DNA of 64,000 nt, taken from Halothermothrix sp. GTDB lineage: Bacteria > Bacillota > Halanaerobiia > DY22613. The translations under genes were made by a program, and so were the position numbers. Under the pieces are notes generated by a model. That model saw only the letters and a list, made by a program, of their open reading frames with translations. It was not told the origin of the DNA and made no database searches. The DNA is taken from assembly GCA_016841825.1 (NCBI GenBank), contig JAENYK010000002.1, positions 372,001 through 436,000 on the forward strand, written 5' to 3'. Of this stretch, positions 15,669 through 64,000 are shown in pieces; position 1 is the first letter of the stretch, and each line of letters begins with the position of its first letter.

Positions 15669-15796
15669 AAAAAAGGTTTATTCCTATAAAAAGTAATGTA
15701 AGGAGGTAGAAGGAAAAATCTAAAAAAATGTGGGATGTGGTGAGTGGAGTGTTCACGGAGAAACAGAAAGCGAAAATCAAAAAAGGGGATGAGAAG

Positions 15797-18709
15797 ATGA
15801 GTAAAGGTTTTACAGGTTTTATTGCTAAGGCTTTGGTTTTGGCTCTGGTGATAGTACTGGTATTACCGATGGGAGTTTTCGCCAGTAATGGTAAGGTTCA
15901 AGTGAAAGGCACAGATGCAGTAACTATGGGTGGTTTTGAGCCTGAGATTCATTTAAAAGGCTTCAATTTGAAGGACAAAGACAAAGAAGAGATTCCTTTT
16001 GGTCTGAAGAAAAGATATAGAATGGGTGAAGTAGGGCCTTATCTGGTAGTTATGGATGGTCCTATTCAAAGACCTGTTAGTGCTGAGATGGCTAAATTGG
16101 GAGCTATTCTTGTAGAATATATACCTGATTTCTCCTTCCTGGTACTGATGACACCGGAAATTGCTAATCTGGTAGAGCAACTGCCATTTGTCGTGGATGT
16201 AATGGTCTATGAGCCAGCGTTTAAAATTAATCCTTCTCTAAAAGATGAAGAAGGTAAGATTAAAGGTTTTGGTGAAGTAGCTGTTAAGATTGTGACATTT
16301 GATGATGCTGCTGTATTGGATAATGAGATTAAAAATGCTCAAGCTGTAAAATTTACTGCTAAAAATACTGATAAAAAGCAGACTGTAGTAAAAATGGATC
16401 GGAGTCAACTTGCTAAGTTTGCTTATATGAACTCAGTAAAATATATCGAAGAAATTCCAGAATATGTTTTGATGAATGATATAGCCAAAGGTTATATGGA
16501 AGTTGACGACCTGTGGACTCTGGGTTATGAAGGTTCTGATCAGGTTGTAGGTATCTGTGACACTGGTCTAGATACCGGTGTTAACAACTCCAGTATGCAC
16601 TTAGACTTCCAGGGCAGAATTGATGCTATCTATGCATTGGGTAGATCAACTGCAGATGACCCTCATGGTCATGGTACTCATGTAGCGGGTTCTGTATTAG
16701 GTGATGGTGCAAGATCTAGTGGTCAGATTAAAGGTATGGCTCCAGAGGCACACGTGGTATTCCAATCCGTATTGGATAGCGGCGGTGGCTTAGGTGGTCT
16801 GCCATATGATTTATATGATCTTTTCGAGCAATCCTGGAATGCTGGAGCTCGAATTCATACTAACTCCTGGGGTGCAGCAGTTAACGGTGATTATAATACT
16901 GATGCCCGTTCAGTTGACGAATTTGTCTGGGATAATGATATGATTATCCTCTTTGCTGCAGGTAATGAAGGTAGTGGTTCTCAAACCATTAGTTCCCCTG
17001 GTACAGCTAAGAATGCAATTACTGTAGGTGCGTCTGAGAACTATCGCCCTTCCGAAGGTTCTTATGCAGATGATCCAACTGATATTGCTGTATTTTCTAG
17101 CCGTGGTCCTTGTGAAGATGGACGAATTAAGCCAGATATCGTAGCTCCTGGTACCTGGATTCTATCTACTAGATCTTCCCGGGCTCCGGACAGCAGTTTC
17201 TGGGATACATATAATTCTTATTATGCATACATGGGTGGTACTTCAATGGCAACTCCATTGACTGCTGGTGCAGTGGCAGTAGCCCGTGATTATATGCAAA
17301 ATGAATGGGGTCATACTCCAAGTCCAGCAATGATGAAAGCTGCTCTGATTAATGGTGGTACTGATCTGGGTTATGGTTTTCCGAGTAACAGTCAGGGTTG
17401 GGGTCGTGTTAATCTGATGGATTCTCTGGACTCTAAAGAATACGAATATGAGGATGAGAATTATAATTTAAGTACTGGTGGTTCCAGAACCTATACTTAT
17501 AATGTAGATTCAACTTATACTCCACTGAAGGTTACTTTGGTTTGGACCGACTATCCAGGTTCTACTTCTGCTTCTAAAGCACTGGTTAACGATCTGGACT
17601 TAGTAGTAACAGCTCCAAATGGTACCGTTTATTATGGTAATGACTTTACAAATCCTTATAATTCTACAGTTGACCGGACTAACAACGTAGAGAATGTGTT
17701 TATTGATACTCCTATGGTCGGTAGTTATACCGTTCAGGTAAGTGGTTATAACGTTCCTAATGGTCCTCAACCATTTGCACTGTTCAGTTCAGCTGACTTT
17801 GGTACTGGCGGCAGCAGTGACGTCATCGATCCAACCGTTTCTTTAACTGCGCCAAGTAGTGGTGCAACTGTAAGCGGTACTATTACAGTTAGTGCAACTG
17901 CTTCTGATAATGTTGGTGTTACAAGAGTAGATTTCTATGCAGGTAGTACTTTAATTGGTAATGACACTACTAGCCCATATAGCATTAGCTGGGATACTAC
18001 TACTATTGCAAATGGTACTTACTCTGTATATGCCAGAGCTTATGATGCAGCTGGTAATTTTGGTACTTCCAACAGTGCCACTGTAACTGTAAATAATCAA
18101 ATTAGTACAACTACTGCTACTACTCACTTCCTGGGTTATGTAAGTAAGAGTGGTACAGCTAATGAATATTTCTATATTGATGTAACTTCTCCTGGGGAGA
18201 TTAACCTAACTCTGGACTGGGCAAACTCAGCTGACCTGGATATGTTCCTATATAATCCATCGGGTTCTGAAGTTGCGAGAGCATACACTCTGAACAATCC
18301 GGAGACTATTAGCTACACAGCTTCAACTACTGGGCGCTATGAGATTAGAGTGAATGCTTATAGTTCTTCCGCTAACTATACTTTAACAGCACAATACCCA
18401 ATTAACCCAAGTCTGACTGGTTATGAGACCCATACTGACTACGTGAGTTCTTCTGGGACTAGTTACAATAATTATTATATAGATGTAACTGATACTGGGT
18501 ATATTAATGTGTATCTGACCTGGGCTACTTCTGCTGACCTAGATATCTTCCTGTATAACCCATCAGGAGTCGAGGTAGATCGGGCTTATACAACCAGTGA
18601 ACCTGAAAGCGTATATTATAATGCACTTACAACAGGTACCTACAGAGTTGTAATTGATGCTTACTCTGGTAGTGCTACTTACGACGTTGAAATTACTTTC
18701 CCTAAGTAA
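15797..18709 (+). CDS. secreted S8 (subtilisin-like) serine peptidase with Ig-like and PPC domains
   Basis: ATG 15797 has AAAAGGGG 8 bp upstream and opens a typical Sec signal peptide (~30 residues, ending VFASNG); the ORF extends 69 bp further up without an SD. The catalytic triad is visible: Asp255 (GICDTGLDTG), His292 (HGHGTHVAGS) and Ser483 (GGTSMATP), with AGNEGSG as the oxyanion site. A jelly-roll domain follows, then one bacterial Ig-like domain (TVSLTAPSSGATVSGTITV) and two pre-peptidase C-terminal repeats (SADLDMFLYNPSG; SADLDIFLYNPSG). It is likely exported and protein-degrading. It is the last backbone gene before the cassette array. Confidence 0.92.
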   Translation: MSKGFTGFIAKALVLALVIVLVLPMGVFASNGKVQVKGTDAVTMGGFEPEIHLKGFNLKDKDKEEIPFGLKKRYRMGEVGPYLVVMDGPIQRPVSAEMAKLGAILVEYIPDFSFLVLMTPEIANLVEQLPFVVDVMVYEPAFKINPSLKDEEGKIKGFGEVAVKIVTFDDAAVLDNEIKNAQAVKFTAKNTDKKQTVVKMDRSQLAKFAYMNSVKYIEEIPEYVLMNDIAKGYMEVDDLWTLGYEGSDQVVGICDTGLDTGVNNSSMHLDFQGRIDAIYALGRSTADDPHGHGTHVAGSVLGDGARSSGQIKGMAPEAHVVFQSVLDSGGGLGGLPYDLYDLFEQSWNAGARIHTNSWGAAVNGDYNTDARSVDEFVWDNDMIILFAAGNEGSGSQTISSPGTAKNAITVGASENYRPSEGSYADDPTDIAVFSSRGPCEDGRIKPDIVAPGTWILSTRSSRAPDSSFWDTYNSYYAYMGGTSMATPLTAGAVAVARDYMQNEWGHTPSPAMMKAALINGGTDLGYGFPSNSQGWGRVNLMDSLDSKEYEYEDENYNLSTGGSRTYTYNVDSTYTPLKVTLVWTDYPGSTSASKALVNDLDLVVTAPNGTVYYGNDFTNPYNSTVDRTNNVENVFIDTPMVGSYTVQVSGYNVPNGPQPFALFSSADFGTGGSSDVIDPTVSLTAPSSGATVSGTITVSATASDNVGVTRVDFYAGSTLIGNDTTSPYSISWDTTTIANGTYSVYARAYDAAGNFGTSNSATVTVNNQISTTTATTHFLGYVSKSGTANEYFYIDVTSPGEINLTLDWANSADLDMFLYNPSGSEVARAYTLNNPETISYTASTTGRYEIRVNAYSSSANYTLTAQYPINPSLTGYETHTDYVSSSGTSYNNYYIDVTDTGYINVYLTWATSADLDIFLYNPSGVEVDRAYTTSEPESVYYNALTTGTYRVVIDAYSGSATYDVEITFPK

Positions 18710-18735
18710 AATCAATATAAGTTATATGAGAGAAG

Positions 18736-18770
18736 GGGCTGTCTCAGAAAACTGAGGCAGCTCTTTTTTT
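18736..18770 (+). terminator. terminator after the subtilisin gene
   Basis: A 12-bp stem (18736-18747 with 18752-18763, one G-T and one mismatch) is followed by eight T residues. Confidence 0.85.
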
Positions 18771-19176
18771 CTCCAGGGGAAGAGTGGTAGAGGTGTGAGC
18801 TGCTAAATCTGGAACAGAGGAAGATGTGATAGTGAAATGCTGCATCTACTCTGTTCTGTTTTATTGGGCAAGCTTAACTTGTAGTTAAAATATAAATTAT
18901 TGTACTATTTTTGGGAATGATGCAGGACTTTGCCTAATGACAGGAGAATACTTAAGTATTTGGTGCTTTATGACTAAAATGTTGGAATAGATTAAATCGT
19001 TAATGTGCTAGAGGTAATCGGCATATCTGAAATTTTACATAAGAAGAAGGGTTTCGGATTAGGTGAAATTACGGATATGGGGATGTTAGGTGAAATTGGT
19101 CGTTTAGGTTTAATATGTTGGTAAAAAAAATATGAGAAAATGGTGAGTTGAATAATGAGCATTCTAGTAATGGAAG
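18771..19176. other. left boundary region of the cassette array
   Basis: No convincing gene is seen and no integrase gene is present. GTTAGGTGAAATT at 19085-19097 looks exactly like the R' core plus conserved cassette start found after the attC sites, so it is a candidate insertion point (attI-like or a worn attC). Confidence 0.45.
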
Positions 19177-20190
19177 ATGAAGAATACAACTTTATATGGG
19201 AGAATATATGTGACTTACAAATTATTTTTCATCCACTATTCTCAAGACGGAGAAGTTGATTACAAAGCGCTTTTAGAATTAAAAAGAATAAAAAACATTA
19301 TTGTTTTGCTTGATAGAAATCTTTTGAGCAGTTTACTAAATCTATCTCGTGATGGTTTTCTTAAGGATGAAAAGGAAATTCAAATAATTGCAATATTAAT
19401 GACTTGGGTGATTATGAATAACTTTCCCGCAAGTGCGGGACTTGCCTTGAAAGAGTACGCATCCAAATTTAATGACGAAAAAGAAACCCAAATTGAATTA
19501 AGAGAATTTAATAATATTTTTGATTATTATTCTAGTATGACCTGGTTAAGATTAGCAGAAGGAATAATCAAAAAAATTCCTATATGTCCTTTACCCGTGA
19601 AACCTTTTATTACAGAATTAAAATATAGTGAAGAAGATGACCATTTTTTAATGCACGTTGCAGAAATGTTACATGCTGTTTATTTATGTAGACGTGATGA
19701 TTTATCTGTAATGGAAAAAATGATGGATTATTTGGAATGGAATTATCAGTATTTATTAATATCAGAAAGTACCCTTTCATATATTGCAATGTTATTCACA
19801 AATCAGCATGGAATTAAAGCACCAAAGAATTCGAGAAGCAATAGTTTTAATAAAATACTAAAAGGTTGCAGAAATCAAGCTTGGGATCTTAATTATTTAT
19901 CAAATTGGAGTTGTTTTCATTATAAAGAAAAAGAAATGAATGATATCTATTTATTTGCAACCAATGATTATTTGCTAAAAAGAATATTTATAAACACATA
20001 TGCTGATGGTGGCGTTGGTGAATTAATTCAAACTATATTTTCTAAGGAAAACTCAAAGAAGATATTTGATGTGATTGAAGCAAATCAAGGGAGAGAAAAA
20101 CCTGATTTTGGTTCAAATCCTAAAAAATACTTTTATAATCTAATAGATAAAGAAAAACAAAGAATATTGAATTTAGGAGTCAAAGAATAA
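19177..20190 (+). CDS. hypothetical protein, first cassette
   Basis: This 337-residue protein is not recognised. It is soluble, rich in Lys, Glu and aromatic residues, with no signal peptide; a segment IKNIIVLLDRNLLSSLL near residue 40 is hydrophobic and a bit PIN-like, but the pattern of acidic residues is not convincing. Upstream GGAAG is a weak SD. The gene is the first one inside the array and is followed 33 bp later by a complete attC site. Its AT content is clearly higher than that of the backbone genes. Confidence 0.6.
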   Translation: MKNTTLYGRIYVTYKLFFIHYSQDGEVDYKALLELKRIKNIIVLLDRNLLSSLLNLSRDGFLKDEKEIQIIAILMTWVIMNNFPASAGLALKEYASKFNDEKETQIELREFNNIFDYYSSMTWLRLAEGIIKKIPICPLPVKPFITELKYSEEDDHFLMHVAEMLHAVYLCRRDDLSVMEKMMDYLEWNYQYLLISESTLSYIAMLFTNQHGIKAPKNSRSNSFNKILKGCRNQAWDLNYLSNWSCFHYKEKEMNDIYLFATNDYLLKRIFINTYADGGVGELIQTIFSKENSKKIFDVIEANQGREKPDFGSNPKKYFYNLIDKEKQRILNLGVKE

Positions 20191-20222
20191 TTCTTGCTGA
20201 ATACGGGGGTGCGACCAACTTC

Positions 20223-20333
20223 ACTTAACACAGGGTTTACGGTTCCATTCCTAACGTCGTTACACCCAAATTGATTCGCTAAACCAAGACTGGCTAAGGC
20301 TCATCAACTTCGTAAACTCATTTAACGTTATGT
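20223..20333 (+). repeat. integron attC site 1
   Basis: R'' ACTTAAC (20223-20229), R' GTTATGT (20327-20333). Arm GGGTTTACG pairs with CGTAAACTC; central segment CACCCAAATT as in most sites of the array. Confidence 0.9.
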
Positions 20334-20384
20334 GAAATAAATTTTAGTTTATGTCTAAAAAATAAAAGAAAAAGAGGTTTTATA

Positions 20385-21065: not shown

Positions 21066-21076
21066 AAATTTATATC

Positions 21077-23448: not shown

Positions 23449-23590
23449 GACATGTTTAGCTTTTGGTTTTCAAAAAATCTTTTTAAAACATGTTCAAACA
23501 ACAGTTAACTAAATATGTTGTAGTAAAAATAATGTGTTTATGGTATAATAAATATGTTCAAATACATTGATTATGAATATATTTAAGAGA
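23449..23590 (+). promoter_or_regulatory. promoter-bearing cassette leader shared with 58010-58140
   Basis: TATAAT at 23544-23549 is preceded by TGG, an extended -10 box. The ~140-bp leader resembles the one in front of the flavodoxin cassette at 58158 (ACA-rich start, CAAACAACAG, ATGGTATAATAAA, ATTCAAATA-like). Confidence 0.65.
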
Positions 23591-23603
23591 GGATGAACAT
23601 ATT

Positions 23604-24650
23604 ATGATGTCTTTTCGAGATGATAGATTGAAGAAAGCAAATATTCCAATGAGAATAGTCAGGTTGATTAGCAAAATTAATGAATTTAAGGGTCAGCAAA
23701 ATCTCTATATTAATCAATCGCCGCAAATTTTAGAAACCTTACAGAAAGTGTCTATAGTTCAGAGTACAAAAGCTTCTAATAGTATTGAGGGTATTATTAT
23801 TACAGACAAGAGATTACAGGAGATTATGAAAGACAGTACCAGGCTAAAGGATAGGTCTGAAGGTGAAATTGCTGGATATAGAGATGTATTAACAACGGTT
23901 CATACTTCATACGAAGCTATTCCGATTAGTTCCAATATTATTCTACAACTTTATAGAGATTTATATAGATATATTTCTGCCACGGGCGGTGTCTGGAAGA
24001 ATCAAGATAATGTCATTGAAGAGATTTTGCCGGATGGAAGTCGGTATATTCGTTTCAAGCCAGTATCAGCAGTAGAAACCCCTGCTTCAATGGAAGAGCT
24101 TTGCTACTATTATAATAAGGAAGTAAGAGATGATGTTTTAGATCCATTGATTTTAATTGGAGCTTTCATCTTAGACTTTTTGTGTATCCATCCTTTCAAT
24201 GATGGTAATGGACGAATGGCGAGACTATTGACTTTACTATTGTTGTATAAAGCAGATTTTGAAGTTGGTAGGTATATAAGTTTAGAAAAAATCATTGAGG
24301 ATAGTAAGGAAAGCTATTATGAGAGTTTGAATAGGTCGTCAATAGGATGGCATGGAGGTAATCATGATATCTATAGTTGGATTGAGTATTGGTTAGGATC
24401 AATACTTGCAGCTTACAAAGAATTTGAAAGTAGAGTTGGTTTGATCGATAGTCGAAAAGGAAATAAGAGTTATAGAGTGGAACAAGCGATAATGAGCGTT
24501 TTGGGAACATTTACTAAAGAAGATATCCGGAATGCTTGTCCTGATGTTTCTTATTCAACCATAAACAGAGTATTTGCACAGTTAAAAGAGGATGGTGTGA
24601 TTGAATCCTTGGGTAAAGGTAGAAATGCAAAGTGGAAAAGATTACGGTAA
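23604..24650 (+). CDS. Fic family protein with winged-helix C terminus
   Basis: The 348-residue protein has the Fic active-site loop HPFNDGNGRMARL and, near residue 60, the N-terminal inhibitory helix motif S-N-S-I-E-G (S/T-x-x-x-E-G), so it is a self-inhibited class II Fic enzyme. Fic proteins AMPylate target proteins. The C-terminal ~90 residues look like a winged helix (SYSTINRVFAQLKEDGVIES). GAGAGG precedes ATG 23604/23607. Unlike most cassettes it has its own promoter leader. Confidence 0.9.
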   Translation: MMSFRDDRLKKANIPMRIVRLISKINEFKGQQNLYINQSPQILETLQKVSIVQSTKASNSIEGIIITDKRLQEIMKDSTRLKDRSEGEIAGYRDVLTTVHTSYEAIPISSNIILQLYRDLYRYISATGGVWKNQDNVIEEILPDGSRYIRFKPVSAVETPASMEELCYYYNKEVRDDVLDPLILIGAFILDFLCIHPFNDGNGRMARLLTLLLLYKADFEVGRYISLEKIIEDSKESYYESLNRSSIGWHGGNHDIYSWIEYWLGSILAAYKEFESRVGLIDSRKGNKSYRVEQAIMSVLGTFTKEDIRNACPDVSYSTINRVFAQLKEDGVIESLGKGRNAKWKRLR

Positions 24651-27278: not shown

Positions 27279-27345
27279 GCTGAACAAACATTCTCTCCGC
27301 TGAGAAACGCTCCGAGAACGTCGGTTGATGTCCCGAATGTTATAT
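27279..27345 (+). repeat. integron attC site 8 (family D)
   Basis: R'' GCTGAAC (27279-27285), R' GTTATAT (27339-27345). Arm ACATTC pairs with GAATGT; inner part CTCTCCGCTGAGAAACG. Same family as 31772-31848. Confidence 0.85.
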
Positions 27346-43083: not shown

Positions 43084-43211
43084 AAGTAGAAATAATTTGC
43101 AACAAACTTTGAAATATGAAGGATACCCTAATTAGCAGCATCTTTGCCTTATTTATATTGTGAAACATCAGAATCATTAAGGGCTCAAAACCTGTGGTGA
43201 GCATTGAAAAG

Positions 43212-58009: not shown

Positions 58010-58140
58010 GATATGCTTATCTTCTAGGTTAAAAAAACTTTTACAAACATATTTAAACAACAGGTAAATTAACTGAACGTGCTGTGGTAAAATTAATATG
58101 TTCATGGTATAATAAACATATTCAAATAATTGGTGTATGA
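58010..58140 (+). promoter_or_regulatory. promoter-bearing cassette leader shared with 23449-23590
   Basis: TATAAT at 58108-58113 with TGG in front (extended -10) lies between AATATGTT and AACATATT, an inverted repeat that could be an operator. The block resembles the leader of the Fic cassette. Confidence 0.65.
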
Positions 58141-58157
58141 GTAAAGGAGAGGATAAG

Positions 58158-58628
58158 ATGAGAGAAACAACCCCAAATGTGTTAATCGTTTGTCAGTCAA
58201 TTCATCATGGAAATACTATGAAAATTGCAAAAGTAATTTCAGAAAAATTAAATGCAAGTATTAAAAAGCCTTCCGAAGTTAAAGTTAGTGATATTAATAA
58301 ATATGATTTAATAGGTTTTGGTTCAGGAATTTATAATCAGAAACACCATGTCAGTATTTTTAAATTAATTAAAAATATTGAAATGCAAAACAAGAAAAAA
58401 GCATTTATTTTTTCTACTGCATCTATTAATTATAAAAAAATGCATAAGGATTTAAGAGAAGAACTTATTTCTAAAGGATTTGTCATTATTGATGAATTTA
58501 TGTGTAAAGGTTTTATGAATCATAGTTTTATAAAATATTTCTTTGGTGGTCTAAATAAAAAAAGACCAAATGAAAAAGATTTATCAAAAGCTAAAGAGTT
58601 TGCACTTAAGATTAAAGAGGGAATGTAA
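58158..58628 (+). CDS. flavodoxin family protein
   Basis: The 156-residue protein has a flavodoxin phosphate loop CQSIHHGNTMKIAKVISEKL and the FMN-ring strand LIGFGSGIYNQKHH. It is short like flavodoxins and probably carries electrons or acts as a small reductase. AAAGGAG lies 8 bp before ATG 58158; the longer ORF start at 58137 lacks an SD. It has its own promoter. Confidence 0.85.
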   Translation: MRETTPNVLIVCQSIHHGNTMKIAKVISEKLNASIKKPSEVKVSDINKYDLIGFGSGIYNQKHHVSIFKLIKNIEMQNKKKAFIFSTASINYKKMHKDLREELISKGFVIIDEFMCKGFMNHSFIKYFFGGLNKKRPNEKDLSKAKEFALKIKEGM

Positions 58629-58639
58629 ATTTTTTGTGT

Positions 58640-59560
58640 AAATGTTTTTTCTCCATAATAAGCTACACTGCCAATTCAGGTTGAAGCCTGTCGTGAAAGT
58701 ATATAGCAAACTGAGAATACAGTTCTTCCATTCTTTGATTGGCATAGTTCACTTTTTGGATATGCCTAATGTAGCCAGATAAATTTTTTTGTTTAGAGCT
58801 TCATCTGAGGGATACGCAGTCCTGGTTTTCGTCACTTTATGAATCTGCCTGTGGTATCCCTCAATCGTATTTGTATTGTAGATTGTTCTTCTCATCTCGT
58901 AAAGATATTTAAAATATGTAGTTAGTTCTAACCAATTATTTTTCCATGAGCGGATAACAATTGAGTATTTTCTTTCTTACTTTTCTTTAAACTGTTCAAA
59001 AGCCAGTTCTGCTTCAGCCAGGGTTAAAGCTTGCTACACTCTCTTGAGATCAATCATTAATATAACACGTATTTGAGAGTATTGCGTATTTGGTGGTTGT
59101 ATCTCTGTCTCTGGAAACGCTGCGTTAATAGCTTTAGAAAAGCCAGATAGACCATCCTTACAAGCAATGAGAATGTCTTCTACGCCGTGATTTTTCAAAT
59201 CATTACATACTCCAAGCCAGAAACTAGAACTTTCACTTTCACCAATCCAGATTCCCAAAATATCTTTAAGTCCAGCCATGTTAATTCCAAGAACACTATA
59301 AGCTGTCTTATTTATAATCTGATTGTCTTTTCTTACTTTGAAATGGATAGCATCTAGATATACTATTGGATAAACTCTTTCCAATGATCTTGACTGCCAT
59401 TTAGCTATTGTTGGCAATATTTTGTCTGTAATCTTACTAACCATTGCTGTTGATACTCCGATTCCATAAATATCGTTCATGTGATCTTTAAACACAAAGA
59501 GTTTTTTGTTATTTGGATTATATGGATGAATAGATGTAATATTGTGCAAGAAAATATTTT
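58640..59560 (-). pseudogene. IS256 (mutator) family transposase remnant
   Basis: On the minus strand the central part reads MNDIYGIGVSTAMVSKITDK, RVYPIVYLDAIHFKVRKDNQ (catalytic D) and DILIACKDGLSGFSKAINAA. After a deletion near 59,035 come ELAFEQFKEK, a stop, and RTIYNTNTIEGYHRQIHKVT, the C-terminal part. Start, end and part of the centre are damaged. No terminal repeats are evident. It divides the array near its right end. Confidence 0.82.
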
Positions 59561-59601
59561 GAAGAAATATAAAATAAAAGAAAATGGAGAGATGAAGCAG
59601 A

Positions 59602-60480
59602 ATGCATTCCAATGAGTTTGACATTAATCTCAATTTTGTTAGAAACTTAATCAATGAGCAGTTCCCTGAATTCTCTAGTCTACCAGTAACTCCAGTAAAT
59701 TCAATTGGAACAGTAAATTACATTTACCGGCTAGGTCAAGAGCTTTATATTCGTCTACCTAGAGTTATGGACTGGGCGAATATAGAAATGGAATGGAAAT
59801 GGCTTTCATATCTTGCTCCCCATTTGACATTGAAGATACCCGAACCTGTTGCTTTAGGTCAACCCAATGCTTCGTACCCTGTTAACTGGGCAATCTACAA
59901 ATGGATTAACGGCAATAATTATTCTGATGAGTTAATTCATAATGAAAGAGAAGCTGCAAAGGATTTGTCAAATTTTATAAATGAGTTGCATTCAATAGAT
60001 GTGCCAATTGATGCGCCTAAGGCAGGCCGCTTACCGTTACTCGAGTTAAACAAAAGAACGTTAGAATCTATTGATGCGGCTGATTTGTTGGATAGAGATA
60101 TATTATTAACAGTATGGGAAGATTCATGCAAAGCTTCTGTATGGAACGGTCATGCAGTATGGATACATGCTGATTTACTCAGAACAAATCTTTTGATACA
60201 TTCCGGGAATTTGTCTGCAGTTATTGACTTTGGCTCAGCAGGGATTGGAGACCCGGCGTTTGATCTAATACCTGCTTGGAGTATATTCAACTCCAAAGGG
60301 CGAAAGGTTTTTCAAAATTCCATCCATGCTGATAAGGATACATGGCTTCGCGCCAGGGGGTATGCACTTCACCAGGCAGTACTTATTATTCCATATTATC
60401 GAGAAACGAACCCACAATTTGTCGCTCTGGCAAAAAGAACGCTGGATCAAATATTGATGAACTTTGATTCGGCAGAATAG
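59602..60480 (+). CDS. APH-family phosphotransferase (possible aminoglycoside or macrolide kinase)
   Basis: The 292-residue protein has the APH fold motifs: VNYIYRLGQELYIRLPRVMD (ATP-binding Lys/Arg strand), VWIHADLLRTNLLIH (catalytic H-x-D-x-x-x-x-N) and VIDFGSAGIGDPAFDL (D-F-G-like metal site). Length and layout fit antibiotic kinases, but the substrate cannot be told. GGAGAGATG precedes ATG 59602. No attC is found around it; the region was disturbed by the IS256 insertion. Confidence 0.85.
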   Translation: MHSNEFDINLNFVRNLINEQFPEFSSLPVTPVNSIGTVNYIYRLGQELYIRLPRVMDWANIEMEWKWLSYLAPHLTLKIPEPVALGQPNASYPVNWAIYKWINGNNYSDELIHNEREAAKDLSNFINELHSIDVPIDAPKAGRLPLLELNKRTLESIDAADLLDRDILLTVWEDSCKASVWNGHAVWIHADLLRTNLLIHSGNLSAVIDFGSAGIGDPAFDLIPAWSIFNSKGRKVFQNSIHADKDTWLRARGYALHQAVLIIPYYRETNPQFVALAKRTLDQILMNFDSAE

Positions 60481-60653
60481 AATAGTGTTCCTTTTGCCAC
60501 ATATGAAATTTTAAAAGAATAAATTAATTAAGTATGTCTTCCAGGTTACTATAATTTAATTTATAAAATGTTATAATATAGCCAGGAATGGTAACTAAAG
60601 AGTTAATACATATTAATTTGTTATAATAGATAAGAATTCATCTGAAGGAGGTA

Positions 60654-60830
60654 ATGTTGATTGGTGGAATGAAGCTCGAGATAATTATCTTTCTCAATGA
60701 AGCAATTGATACAAAAGCAGAAAATATAAAGAGAATCATTAAGGAGATAACAGTAATTGATACGTTTATTGAGAATAATGAAGCGTTGAAAAAGTATATT
60801 CACTTAACTGAGTCGCATCCAAATTGTTAG
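60654..60830 (+). CDS. possible 58-residue small protein
   Basis: GAAGGAGG lies 4-8 bp before ATG 60654. The sequence (KLEIIIFLNEAIDTKAENIK) is lysine- and glutamate-rich and not recognised. The last codons overlap a stub that looks like joined attC cores (CACTTAAC ... GTTAG), so the true end may be altered. Confidence 0.45.
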   Translation: MLIGGMKLEIIIFLNEAIDTKAENIKRIIKEITVIDTFIENNEALKKYIHLTESHPNC

Positions 60831-60832
60831 AG
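60802..60832 (+). repeat. possible attC stub 42
   Basis: ACTTAAC (60802-60808), CATCCAAATT and GTTAGAG (60826-60832) are present, but only 31 bp in all, so this is at best a deletion product. Confidence 0.35.
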
Positions 60833-61225
60833 GAGATCAGCTCTGATAATTATAGAGTGTAGGAGGGTGCCATGGATTACAGTTTTAAAACGATGGGATT
60901 ACTGGTATGAACTTCTTAGTAGCGAATAGAGTAATAATTAACATAGGAGAATTACAATTGGCATAGCACCTAATATTTTGGTATATTTTTTTTAGCCTAT
61001 CAAGCAATTATACGTTAAGTTTCACAGTTAATTAAAAATAGTAAAAATACTTGTTGATATTGTAAACTTGTCTGTTCAAAGAGTATGACGTTGAATATTG
61101 AATATCCTAATTTTCTTTGCTATCGCCACGAGAACTCCGGATGATATCAACTATGCCAGTAGAAAATTGGGCTGGGCCAGATATAAGGTGAAAAAATCTT
61201 TTGGAGTGAAGTCAGGAGATTGGTT
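60833..61225. other. gene-free stretch before the GNAT gene
   Basis: No gene is recognised. GAGAACTCCGGATGATATC at 61130 resembles the right part of family-D attC sites without a core. Confidence 0.35.
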
Positions 61226-61687
61226 ATGATAATACGATTTCGCACATTTAGTCAAGATGATGATTTGGAAGTACGAGAGATGATCTTTGCTCTATACAGG
61301 GAAGATTCAGAGGGTGAACCTATCACCAACGAAAAGATAAGTAGGACATTATCTGTACTAGAGGAGAATTCTCAACGAGGAGAACTTATTATTTTTGATA
61401 TGGAAGGAACAGTAGTTGGTTATTCGATCCTAATTTATTATTGGAGTAATGAGTTCGGTGGCGATTTATTAACTATTGATGAGCTATATGTAAAACCCGA
61501 GTGGCGAAGTAACGGAATTAGTACTGCTTTTTTTAATCACATAGTTAATAAATATAAAGAAACAGTGGTGGGTTTTAAACTAGAAGTAACGCCATCAAAT
61601 AGCAGAGCAATGCAGCATTATCAAAATTTAGGCTTTACAGCGATAATGAATAAGGGTTTTGTAAAGCTAGTGGAAAGGGATTCATAA
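61226..61687 (+). CDS. GNAT family N-acetyltransferase
   Basis: The 153-residue protein has ELIIFDMEGTVVGYSILIYY, DELYVKPEWRSNGISTAFFN (acetyl-CoA loop R-S-N-G-I-S) and VTPSNSRAMQHYQNLGFTAI, in the order of GNAT enzymes. ATG 61226 has AGGAG 7 bp upstream; TTG 61220 is the alternative. The target is unknown. Confidence 0.88.
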   Translation: MIIRFRTFSQDDDLEVREMIFALYREDSEGEPITNEKISRTLSVLEENSQRGELIIFDMEGTVVGYSILIYYWSNEFGGDLLTIDELYVKPEWRSNGISTAFFNHIVNKYKETVVGFKLEVTPSNSRAMQHYQNLGFTAIMNKGFVKLVERDS

Positions 61688-61854
61688 TCTTTTCATTCTA
61701 TTATGGCTAAATAGGGCATGTCCAGATCTGTTGCGGGAGATGTTGAGTAATTGGCTTTTCTACCGTGATTATGAAACCGTACACAAGCCAGTGTTCATTA
61801 TGTATATATTCGGAGATTGTGTTATTTTCTTATAACTTCAAGAGGAGGGCTAAA

Positions 61855-62337
61855 ATGAAAACAGTAATAATAAAAGAATGTGGAGATATCAAAACCTCAG
61901 ATGTCTATACTTTTGACTTAAATAAAAAGGTTGTAAAGGATTGTATTGGTTGTTGGTCTTGTTGGTGGAAAACACCTGGCAGATGCTCTTTCAATGATTT
62001 AAATGAATTTTATCATCGTTATATAACAGCAGACAAAGCTATTTATTTTGTGAGGGTTACAAAAGAATTTGTCAGTGGTAATTTGAAAACTCTTTTTGAT
62101 AGAATGATACCACTTTATCTACCATATACTGTCTATACGTCAGGTGAATCCATGCATGTTCCCAGATACGAAAAGTATCCTGATATTGAATTTTACTATG
62201 AAGGCAAATTTGAAACACATTCCGGTCGTCAGATTTTTGTAGATTATATTAATCGTGTATTTTACCAGTTTTACTCAAAGAATATTATCATAAAGCCTAT
62301 TGGGGAATTTATTGCAGAAGGAGATGATAACACATGA
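61855..62337 (+). CDS. flavodoxin family protein, FMN reductase-like
   Basis: The 160-residue protein contains KDCIGCWSCWWKTPGRC, the C-x-x-C motif of a group of iron-sulfur or FMN reductases, and YFVRVTKEFVSGNLKTLFDR, the flavin-site region; the usual N-terminal phosphate loop is weak. GAGGAGG lies 6 bp before ATG 61855. It overlaps the next gene by 4 bp (ATGA), forming a two-gene unit. Confidence 0.75.
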   Translation: MKTVIIKECGDIKTSDVYTFDLNKKVVKDCIGCWSCWWKTPGRCSFNDLNEFYHRYITADKAIYFVRVTKEFVSGNLKTLFDRMIPLYLPYTVYTSGESMHVPRYEKYPDIEFYYEGKFETHSGRQIFVDYINRVFYQFYSKNIIIKPIGEFIAEGDDNT

Positions 62338-62978
62338 ATACAATTATTTTAAATGGTTCACCTAAGGGAAATTCTGAAAAATGTAATTCTCAAATTTTTG
62401 CGGAACAATTTGTAAAAGACATGAAAAATCCGTGCGAAATAAAATGTATTGCCCAAAATGTCCCTAAAGAACTCGCCCAGTATGTTGCAGACTTTGATGC
62501 TATAATACTTATATTACCGCTTTATATTCATGCTATGCCGGGAATTGTCATGAAATTCATTGAAGAATTGGAACCAGCTACTTCAAAAGGTAAATCTATA
62601 GGATTTATTATACAGGCAGGATTTATAGAAACTGCTCAACATAAGTATGTTGGACGATATCTTGAAAATTTAGCAGAGCGACTTAATTACAGCTATTTGG
62701 GCACAGTTTCAAAGGGAGAGGCAGCTGCCATTTATATGTATCCGAAAATGTTTAAAAAGGTATTAAAATTACTTTCTGAGTTAGGTGTTGCATATGAAAA
62801 AAATCATGCTTTTGACGATGAGGTTGTGAAAAAGTTAACTAACCCATATGAGCTATCAAAGTTTAAATTGTGGCTCCTTAGATTAGTTAATAAAGTAGGA
62901 TTAGGTAATATAGGGTGGCATAAAGTTTTAAGGGAAAACGATGTCATGGATAAAAGATTGGATAGACCATTTTTATAA
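62334..62978 (+). CDS. NAD(P)H-dependent oxidoreductase, flavodoxin fold
   Basis: The 214-residue protein has an intact phosphate loop, ILNGSPKGNSEKCNSQIFAE, and ILILPLYIHAMPGIVMKFIE, the flavin-site strand. It belongs to the NADPH-dependent FMN reductase group and is coupled to the preceding gene, so the two may work together as partners in one redox reaction. Confidence 0.82.
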   Translation: MNTIILNGSPKGNSEKCNSQIFAEQFVKDMKNPCEIKCIAQNVPKELAQYVADFDAIILILPLYIHAMPGIVMKFIEELEPATSKGKSIGFIIQAGFIETAQHKYVGRYLENLAERLNYSYLGTVSKGEAAAIYMYPKMFKKVLKLLSELGVAYEKNHAFDDEVVKKLTNPYELSKFKLWLLRLVNKVGLGNIGWHKVLRENDVMDKRLDRPFL

Positions 62979-63185
62979 TAGTGAATGATTTTTTTGGTAT
63001 GTATCTGTGGTTATAGATGTTTTACATAATAGTATAATATTCATATAGGTTGGGGTTAGCTGGTTTTCCGTTGACGGAATTTAAATTCTAACACGCTATA
63101 TGTGCTTTGCCCTGGGCTTTTTTTTAAGTATAATGGACTTTTAAGAAAAAAATAATCGAGTTTCACCAGATTGAACCGGTACTTC
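62979..63185. other. gap before the last attC
   Basis: No gene. TTCCGT / ACGGAA form a small hairpin near 63070, and GCCCTGGGC followed by eight T (63109-63124) may act as a terminator. Confidence 0.35.
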
Positions 63186-63259
63186 ATAGAACATAGTATT
63201 CCTTTATTTTTTGCTAAGGAATACTTTAATAAAGACAGATGATACCTTGGATGTTAGCG
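63186..63259 (+). repeat. integron attC site 43 (family D-like)
   Basis: ATAGAAC (63186-63192) and R' GTTAGCG (63253-63259). GTATTCCTT pairs with AAGGAATAC; the right arm GATGATACCTTGGATG matches family D (GATGATGCCACGGATG). Confidence 0.72.
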
Positions 63260-63294
63260 ACATTTCGCAAAAGTTTAAAAAGGAGGTAATTGTA

Positions 63295-64000
63295 ATAAAA
63301 AAGTATGGTTGGTTATTAATCATTGTCATTATTCTTTCAGTAGGTTTTAATGTTTTTCTGGTTACTTATATAGGTAAAATGAAAACGGAAGAAGCTAAAT
63401 ATCCCAATAGTTTAATTTTTAAAAATGCAAATTCACGTGATACAATTTTTTCGATGCATAATATTAAGAAAGCACAGCAGATTACTCAAGGAAAAGGAAT
63501 TAAAGTTGGTGTAATTGATAAGTTTTTTGGGTATAATAAACATTCCGATTTATATAGTGGTGGAATGGATTTTTCAAAAAGCTCCAATTCGTTTTATGAA
63601 ATTGATGAACATGGTTATTGGATGTCATTAATATTGAAGGAAATTGCTCCGAAAGCTGATCTATATGCCCTCAATATAGAATGGGAAGATGAAAATTCAA
63701 AAGTTGAAAGTATGATCGAAGCTATTAATTGGGCTATAAAAAATGATATTGATGTTTTAACATATTCTTCGAGCAAATTTTCCGAAGAAAATAAACAAAG
63801 GCTGGATAACGCCGTAAAGAGGGCTATAGAGCATAATATAGTAACTACATTTATACACTATTCTTATGGCGAAAATATATTACCAGATGGGTTTTTTGAA
63901 TATAAGGGAGCTACAGATTATAATCGTAGAGAACCAGATATAAATATTTACCATTTCGATTATAATGTTTTGTTTATAAAGAATTACAATGTATATAATA
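63295..64000 (+). CDS. membrane-anchored subtilisin-like protein (cut by window end)
   Basis: AAAGGAGG (63278-63285) is followed after about 9 bp by ATA, which starts the frame; no ATG, GTG or TTG fits. The protein begins KKYGWLLIIVIILSVGFNVF, a membrane anchor or signal, then ITQGKGIKVGVIDKFFGYNK (Asp motif of S8) and IDEHGYWMSLILKEIAPKAD (His motif), ending at the window edge before the Ser motif. Both motifs deviate from classical subtilisins, so it may be a degenerate or specialised S8 protein. Confidence 0.65.
   Translation, partial: MKKYGWLLIIVIILSVGFNVFLVTYIGKMKTEEAKYPNSLIFKNANSRDTIFSMHNIKKAQQITQGKGIKVGVIDKFFGYNKHSDLYSGGMDFSKSSNSFYEIDEHGYWMSLILKEIAPKADLYALNIEWEDENSKVESMIEAINWAIKNDIDVLTYSSSKFSEENKQRLDNAVKRAIEHNIVTTFIHYSYGENILPDGFFEYKGATDYNRREPDINIYHFDYNVLFIKNYNVYN

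Follow-up and report, generated by a model that had tools for sequence, protein, structure and literature searches.

The locus described here raises the question of how an array of integron-type cassettes arose in a genome where no integrase is found with it, and of what lies at the point where that array begins. The window, i.e. the whole stretch of 64,000 nucleotides that was analysed, covers positions 372001-436000 of contig C38 in a 5.08-Mb genome of 43 contigs. The R'' end of an integron cassette is complementary to the bases with which that cassette begins. The original prediction placed a possible attI-like point at the left edge of the array. In the reading proposed here, position 19085 is probably the left boundary of an orphan (CALIN-type) array that came from a non-canonical integron platform and was assembled, we infer, by recombination.

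The attC-like sites

At least 24 attC-like sites, all on the + strand and each scoring 56.7 bits or more with a model termed R1, occupy 20221-58011. R1 was built from 19 sites of this same array, with ends set by script, and thus 19 of the 24 sites are training members and five are independent. Weaker R1 hits on both strands (17.6-24.9 bits) were left out of the count. The first site (20221..20335, +, 104.4 bits), itself a training member, is followed on the + strand by sites starting at 21075, 23336, 25669, 26822, 28135, 29267, 29965, 30649, 32524, 36564 and 41645, and further on at 43201, 44307, 46817, 49798, 51050, 51766, 52568, 53742, 55421, 56283, 56993 and 57907. No site of this score was found by R1 in the 20 kb preceding the window or in the stretch adjoining it on the right (L011). 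The right part of the island (58012..64000) is not array-like as far as seen, and continues for about 4.6 kb into L011 up to a gene that, from its sequence, we take to be dacF-like.

In the R1 alignment, 14 of the 20 predicted pairs show changes on both sides that preserve pairing, and the L and stem pairs are conserved. Seven sites from the window or its relatives were folded as bottom-strand DNA, of which four gave z values of -4.2 to -4.9 and one gave -2.5; the folds of the window sites at 20221 and 51050 were no better than those of shuffled sequences. R1 matches 27 of 61 genomes.

Other elements were observed in and around the array. A second, shorter attC-like type of about 70 bases occurs at 27283, 31645 and 31786. 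One cassette (23505-24650) contains a Fic-like ORF with an HPFNDGNGR motif recognised by eye; DNA about 71% identical to it is present twice in the array of G026, a genome of another family, and a 75-nt stretch upstream of it is repeated at 58069. To the right of the array, 59034-60480 holds a leftward ORF that by eye resembles a transposase remnant, as well as a 292-aa APH-family phosphotransferase (PF01636).

The left edge of the array

The island is flanked on the left by a backbone subtilisin-like gene (15728..18709, +), a 993-aa ORF whose orthologue in G001, the one same-family genome used for comparison (a single contig), is 69% identical. As originally predicted, the gene ends just before the edge, at 18709, and is followed by a terminator-like hairpin with a T-run (about 18736..18771, +), a by-eye reading that carries no program score. 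The GC content is about 39% in the backbone up to 18.7 kb and falls to about 30% from about 19 kb. The next 309 bases (18776..19084) form a spacer without an ORF, an integrase remnant or detectable relatives, in which the palindromic attI box is at background level; it could be either an attI-side relic or native intergenic DNA. A search of 59 genomes of the same class with 18776-19176 returned no relative, only pieces of 24-44 nt.

The GTTAGGT and GAAATT text noticed at 19085 is indeed present there as GTTAGGTGAAATT (19085..19097, +), the left boundary of the array and the start of its first cassette, where exchange would be expected at G|TT. By eye, TTAGGTGAAATT occurs twice on the + strand, once at 19059..19070 with A before it instead of G, and again at 19086-19097. 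The first-cassette ORF (19177..20190, +, 337 aa) has no Pfam match. The ORFs run rightwards from 19085, in agreement with the view that cassette genes point away from this edge. The bare 7-mer GTTAGGT did not hold up as a mark of cassettes: eight copies were found versus 5.5 expected, at least as many occur in 20 of 100 shuffles, and the majority of the copies lie elsewhere than at cassette starts. The actual signal is the longer form GTTANNNGNNAT.

Two measures support 19085 as the first cassette boundary. With a 12-nt matrix derived from 18 relatives, it scores 15.0 and ranks 11 among the 1233 GTT sites of the window, and the ten sites that rank higher are mostly attC ends. The first attC has TCACTTAAC as its R'', whose best partner within 18710-20150 is 19085 (eight Watson-Crick pairs and one G-T). 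Equally good partners number three in the 18.7 kb to the left and two in 19.1-60 kb; at the rate of three in 18.7 kb, a match would fall by chance inside the 375-bp spacer in roughly 6% of cases.

A longer attI matrix, comprising 30 nt upstream and 12 nt downstream of the attI junctions of the 18 relatives, ranks 19085 first among the 1233 GTT sites (14.7 bits, the next being 8.7). The score derives almost wholly from the cassette side; with the upstream half alone, 19085 scores -0.3 and ranks 30 of 1233, and the palindromic box there does not rise above background. The upstream half is not attC-like (-8.2, rank 145 of 1213). Position 19085 may be either a decayed attI or a genomic insertion point (attG).

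According to the second of these options, to which somewhat less than an even chance is given, 19085 was never an attI. The integrase would have placed the first cassette in an ordinary genomic site (attG-like, G|TT), more cassettes would have joined it, and the integrase gene would never have been at this position. This keeps the orphan-array part of the proposed reading and differs about 19085 alone. It agrees with the spacer that lacks an integrase remnant, with the missing palindromic box and the rank of the upstream half, with the absence of an integrase from both same-family genomes and with a lone attC hit in G001; such sites have also been described for IntI1 (PMC12901181). It has to contend with 19085 being the best attI candidate in the window and with the 39-kb length of the array, which is great for one formed by successive insertions where no attI is present.

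The comparison with G001 bears on the state of the site before insertion. To the left of the array, genes stand in the same order in G001, where the proteins are 63-86% identical and about 1 kb separates the subtilisin gene from the homologue of the dacF-like gene. The array is absent between these two genes; in the window's genome, the dacF-like gene lies 49.9 kb further right (L011 4579-5748). The relative that the original prediction proposed to look for, with the same edge sequence and no array, is absent among the class genomes: G001 is array-free, yet its spacer is unrelated to that of the window and supplies no pre-insertion version of it, which lends the attG reading no support. From this one relative, G001 could either have lost the island or never had it.

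Search for an integrase in the genome

The claim that the integrase is missing from the array's expected end was confirmed. No integrase gene lies between the subtilisin gene and the first cassette, and the searches with PF00589 and TIGR02249 and those for remnants found nothing there. PF00589 has five matches in the genome, none of them on C38, and nowhere in the assembly does a match to TIGR02249 (IntI) exceed the cut-off of that model. The profile made from the relatives' integrases gave a best E of 0.84 when run against six-frame pieces of four kinds of sequence, namely the window, its two flanks, the G001 stretches and contig C34 of the same assembly. Remnants of the integrase family described below (P0003) were not found in the window, L011, L012 or L224.

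Two other places for an integrase were considered and rejected. The gene is not hidden to the right, where the contig ends 7.3 kb past the window and carries the dacF-like gene. The genome's other tyrosine recombinases are all off C38 and fall outside the P0003 family, the best relative being 35% identical with E 7.6e-21. Because the integrase is absent from the genome, the array is probably frozen.

A tyrosine recombinase linked to arrays in relatives

Among the 59 class genomes, TIGR02249 reaches E 1e-30 or better in 15 and exceeds its cut-off in none. By coordinates, 14 of these 15 best hits belong to one family, represented by P0003 of G017 (371 aa), which a count from the table places in 28 of the 59 genomes at E 1e-30 or better. 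P0003 has the Pfam domains PF00589 and PF13495, with about 95 extra N-terminal residues before the SAM-like domain. It scores below the XerC and XerD cut-offs and passes NF040815 ("site-specific tyrosine recombinase/integron integrase") with 228 versus 220 bits. A PDB search found IntI4 (2a3v) to be its best solved relative, the matches flanking a gap where IntI has 42 more residues. When aligned, all 86 family proteins (8 of 8 from the class, 78 of 78 among the named relatives) have 58-63 residues separating KDR from HxLRH, whereas IntI1, IntI2 and a Shewanella phage IntI have 100, 100 and 99 there. The named relatives are the 78 that gave an ORF out of 80 loci listed in a scan of genome contigs (see below). 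A regex-based measure of the insert was discarded, since its 13 long values among the 78 were all gone in the alignment. Foldseek ranks 2a3v first among the matches to an AlphaFold model of the P0003-type integrase (mean pLDDT 75.8, pTM 0.47); TM-scores are about 0.5 and the rmsd is large, which makes the placement of domains uncertain. In phylogenies, the three IntI branch within the insert-less family in the FastTree result, a placement of weak support, and the IQ-TREE result was unresolved (family node 29.3/77).

The gene for this recombinase (int) is linked to attC arrays in the relatives. Nineteen stretches around int were taken, and int or a remnant of it is present in 18, L128 being treated as the continuation of L129. 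By hand count, 53 of 55 attC hits lie downstream of int and on its strand; the exceptions are a site in L121 that lies upstream and an overlap on the opposite strand in L122. A GTTA junction is found about 80-300 bases 3' of int in 18 of 18 loci, reading GTTANNNG in 17 and differing in L132; its position was picked by eye in four (L131, L132, L137 and L138). The junction 9-mer was compared with the R'' of the nearest R1 site in ten loci, and it pairs at nine of nine positions in L120, L121, L122, L123, L126, L127 and L129 and at eight of nine in L124. L125 and L135 fall outside this test because the first R1 site there is not the first attC, nearer sites having been missed. A palindrome such as ACGACATATGTCGT precedes the junction with 0-3 mismatches in L120, L122, L130, L132, L133 and L137, and is not above background in the remaining int loci. 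One further candidate, G026:C1:1596208, adjoins transposase-like ORFs; it was rejected as an array integrase and kept out of the 18 loci.

Remnants of int stand beside surviving arrays in L121, L122 and L129, and decay of the integrase next to a lasting array thus happens in the class. By hand count, a P0003-type integrase is lacking in 10 of the 27 class genomes that are R1-positive, both genomes of the window's family among them, and 11 int-positive class genomes have no R1 hit. In G025, G031 and G033, R1 sites lie apart from the integrase. Such mismatches between R1 hits and integrase, together with the weak end pairing of the window cassettes (see below), count against the reading proposed here.

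The most likely history of the window array is that an insert-less platform built it and that the integrase has since gone. The window cassettes would be of the same attC-bearing kind that follows the tyrosine recombinase, on the same strand, in the class relatives. That recombinase would act as an integron integrase without the IntI-specific insert (I2), strand exchange would take place at G|TT between the attI just 3' of int and the attC of a circular cassette, and cassettes would be stacked rightward. The P0003-type recombinase would then have built the arrays of the class, and the window array would have come from such a platform.

It is unlikely that the arrays instead owe their formation and movement to a canonical IntI, working in trans or at an earlier time, with the insert-less recombinase as a bystander such as a resident Xer-like enzyme. 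Known attC recombination is reported to depend on I2 (PMC7790495), and canonical IntI does exist elsewhere: as a positive control, it was found in one piece (365 bits) in one of seven genomes reached via the named loci, that of G063 (Nitrospirae). Against this stand the class genomes themselves, where TIGR02249 found nothing over its cut-off and nearly all of its best hits are of the P0003 type, the insert-less gene directly 5' of the junction in all 18 loci with almost every attC hit downstream on its strand, and the same layout suggested in other phyla. G063, the genome that contains L143, carries the canonical IntI and a member of the insert-less family together.

Pairing of cassette ends and past mobility

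Pairing of each R'' with the start of its own cassette was compared with permuted assignments. With model-defined ends, the 24 window cassettes give a pairing sum of 158.0 versus 150.4 permuted, which 532 of 20000 permutations reach; with the first cassette removed, 1153 of 20000 reach the observed value. With boundaries from a generic pattern (12 cassettes, the first boundary mis-set at 19117 instead of 19085), the result is not significant (3043 of 20000). From this weak pairing, the window array looks eroded. The 100-kb array of G026, which lies on one contig, contains 32 cassettes with a mean pairing of 8.09 of 9 versus 7.19 permuted (0 of 20000), and 14 of the 32 pair perfectly. The arrays thus have the attC features of canonical integrons, R''/R' and L''/L' pairing and an R'' complementary to the start of its own cassette, this end complementarity being clear in G026 and weaker in the window alone.

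A 1057-bp unit, 94% identical, is common to G026 and contig C34 of the window's assembly; both of its ends are at GTT and the flanks differ. The C34 copy is a lone cassette (L224 3820-4874, G000:C34) beside a transposase-like ORF, and starts with GTTAGGTGAAAT, as does the window's edge. C34 is a contig of 14.5 kb in an assembly with an estimated contamination of 4.72%, and might therefore belong to another organism. The pairing in G026 and the unit shared with C34 indicate, at the level of sequence, that the arrays have been mobile in the past. The idea that the repeats are ordinary interspersed hairpins (terminators or repeat-type non-coding elements) and not recombination sites is very improbable: they are intergenic, fold into hairpins and match no Rfam family in the window (0 matches), but all sites share a single orientation, R'' matches the start of its own cassette in G026, and the shared unit ends at GTT between different flanks.

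Near-identical elements of about 1.9 kb (98-99%) were observed inside several attC sites, at the hairpin apex, in L219-L223 (G026:C1:1544001-1644000) and L122. In L121, the copy is matched by RF02005 and RF00029, two Rfam models of group II introns, and contains an ORF of 431 aa that resembles a reverse transcriptase.

Distribution beyond the class

A scan of genome contigs with eight class proteins gave at least 80 loci, including Paenibacillus, Bacteroidota, Nitrospirae, Spirochaetes and archaea. In these loci, a GTT 9-mer within 300 bases after int was sought together with its complement 250-4500 bases further on. Among the matches listed, 41 loci have 1.5 kb or more downstream, and 30 of these have a GTT 9-mer that recurs as an exact complement, although some of the 30 are probably fortuitous, given that TTA, one of the AT-rich controls, recurs at 31 of 302. 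Counted per 9-mer over the loci among the matches listed, recurrence is 32 of 214 for GTT versus 455 of 11266 for other 9-mers. Clear cases by eye include L143 (Nitrospirae), L185 (Flavobacterium limicola), L199 (Methanoperedenaceae) and L153 (Paenibacillus). These matches suggest an int-junction-array layout in other phyla, as a lead and not a census. The insert-less integrase is also present on a Chryseobacterium plasmid (L230 5971-7014), where its annotation reads "site-specific tyrosine recombinase/integron integrase" and short ORFs pointing rightward come after it.

More broadly, it is given somewhat better than an even chance that insert-less integron integrases form a wide family, present at least in Bacillota, Bacteroidota, Nitrospirota, Spirochaetota and some archaea, which operates complete same-strand integrons with int, attI and attC cassettes. 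Such enzymes would recognise folded attC with no I2 helix, and the I2-bearing IntI may have originated inside this pool or next to it.

Relation to known systems and significance

By the IntegronFinder definition, CALIN have at least two attC-like sites in one orientation and no integrase. The window shares these features, its 24 attC-like sites by R1, a model from this array, being close together with no integrase among them. In Firmicutes, a few CALIN and one complete integron (Limnochorda pilosa) have been reported (PMC9024848). The IntI-specific domain is described as part of the test for calling an integrase IntI (PMC9668308); since the class arrays are linked to a recombinase that would fail this test, some such CALIN clusters would not be integrase-less.

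The class loci share with canonical integrons (class 1, class 2 and Vibrio) an attI-like junction by the integrase, the R''/L''/L'/R' pairs, an expected G|TT exchange point and one cassette direction, and the canonical IntI4 is the closest solved protein to P0003. Unlike in canonical integrons, the integrase beside the junction in all 18 loci lacks the IntI-specific insert, with 0 of 59 class genomes over the TIGR02249 cut-off; it is also longer at the N-terminus by the residues noted above, and lies on the same strand as the cassettes. In this last respect the class loci resemble the integrons of Treponema, where intI is reported to be transcribed toward attI in the same direction as the cassettes, with GTTAGGT between intI and attC in T. 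brennaborense and attC retained after loss of intI in T. phagedenis (PMC3607928). The Treponema genes differ in being reported as intI. XerC/XerD and archaeal XerA have the same fold as P0003, which passes NF040815; the P0003 type differs from XerC/XerD in its link to attI-like junctions and cassette arrays and in scoring under their cut-offs.

The array alone is of a known kind (CALIN), and the part that would be surprising is attC arrays tied to an integrase without I2. PMC7790495 describes cassette capture as requiring the I2 helix, and this helix as found in no other protein, and for this reason such a link would surprise a specialist. No earlier description of attC arrays with an insert-less integrase was recognised in the titles and abstract openings of the open-licence PMC literature.

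For the window itself the point is a modest one: relatives allow a platform to be named for this orphan array. If it is true that insert-less enzymes move attC cassettes, the requirement for I2 would not be general, and an integrase may exist for some of the clusters currently counted as integrase-less. The transition between double- and single-strand recombination would then be open to study in living, not reconstructed, enzymes.
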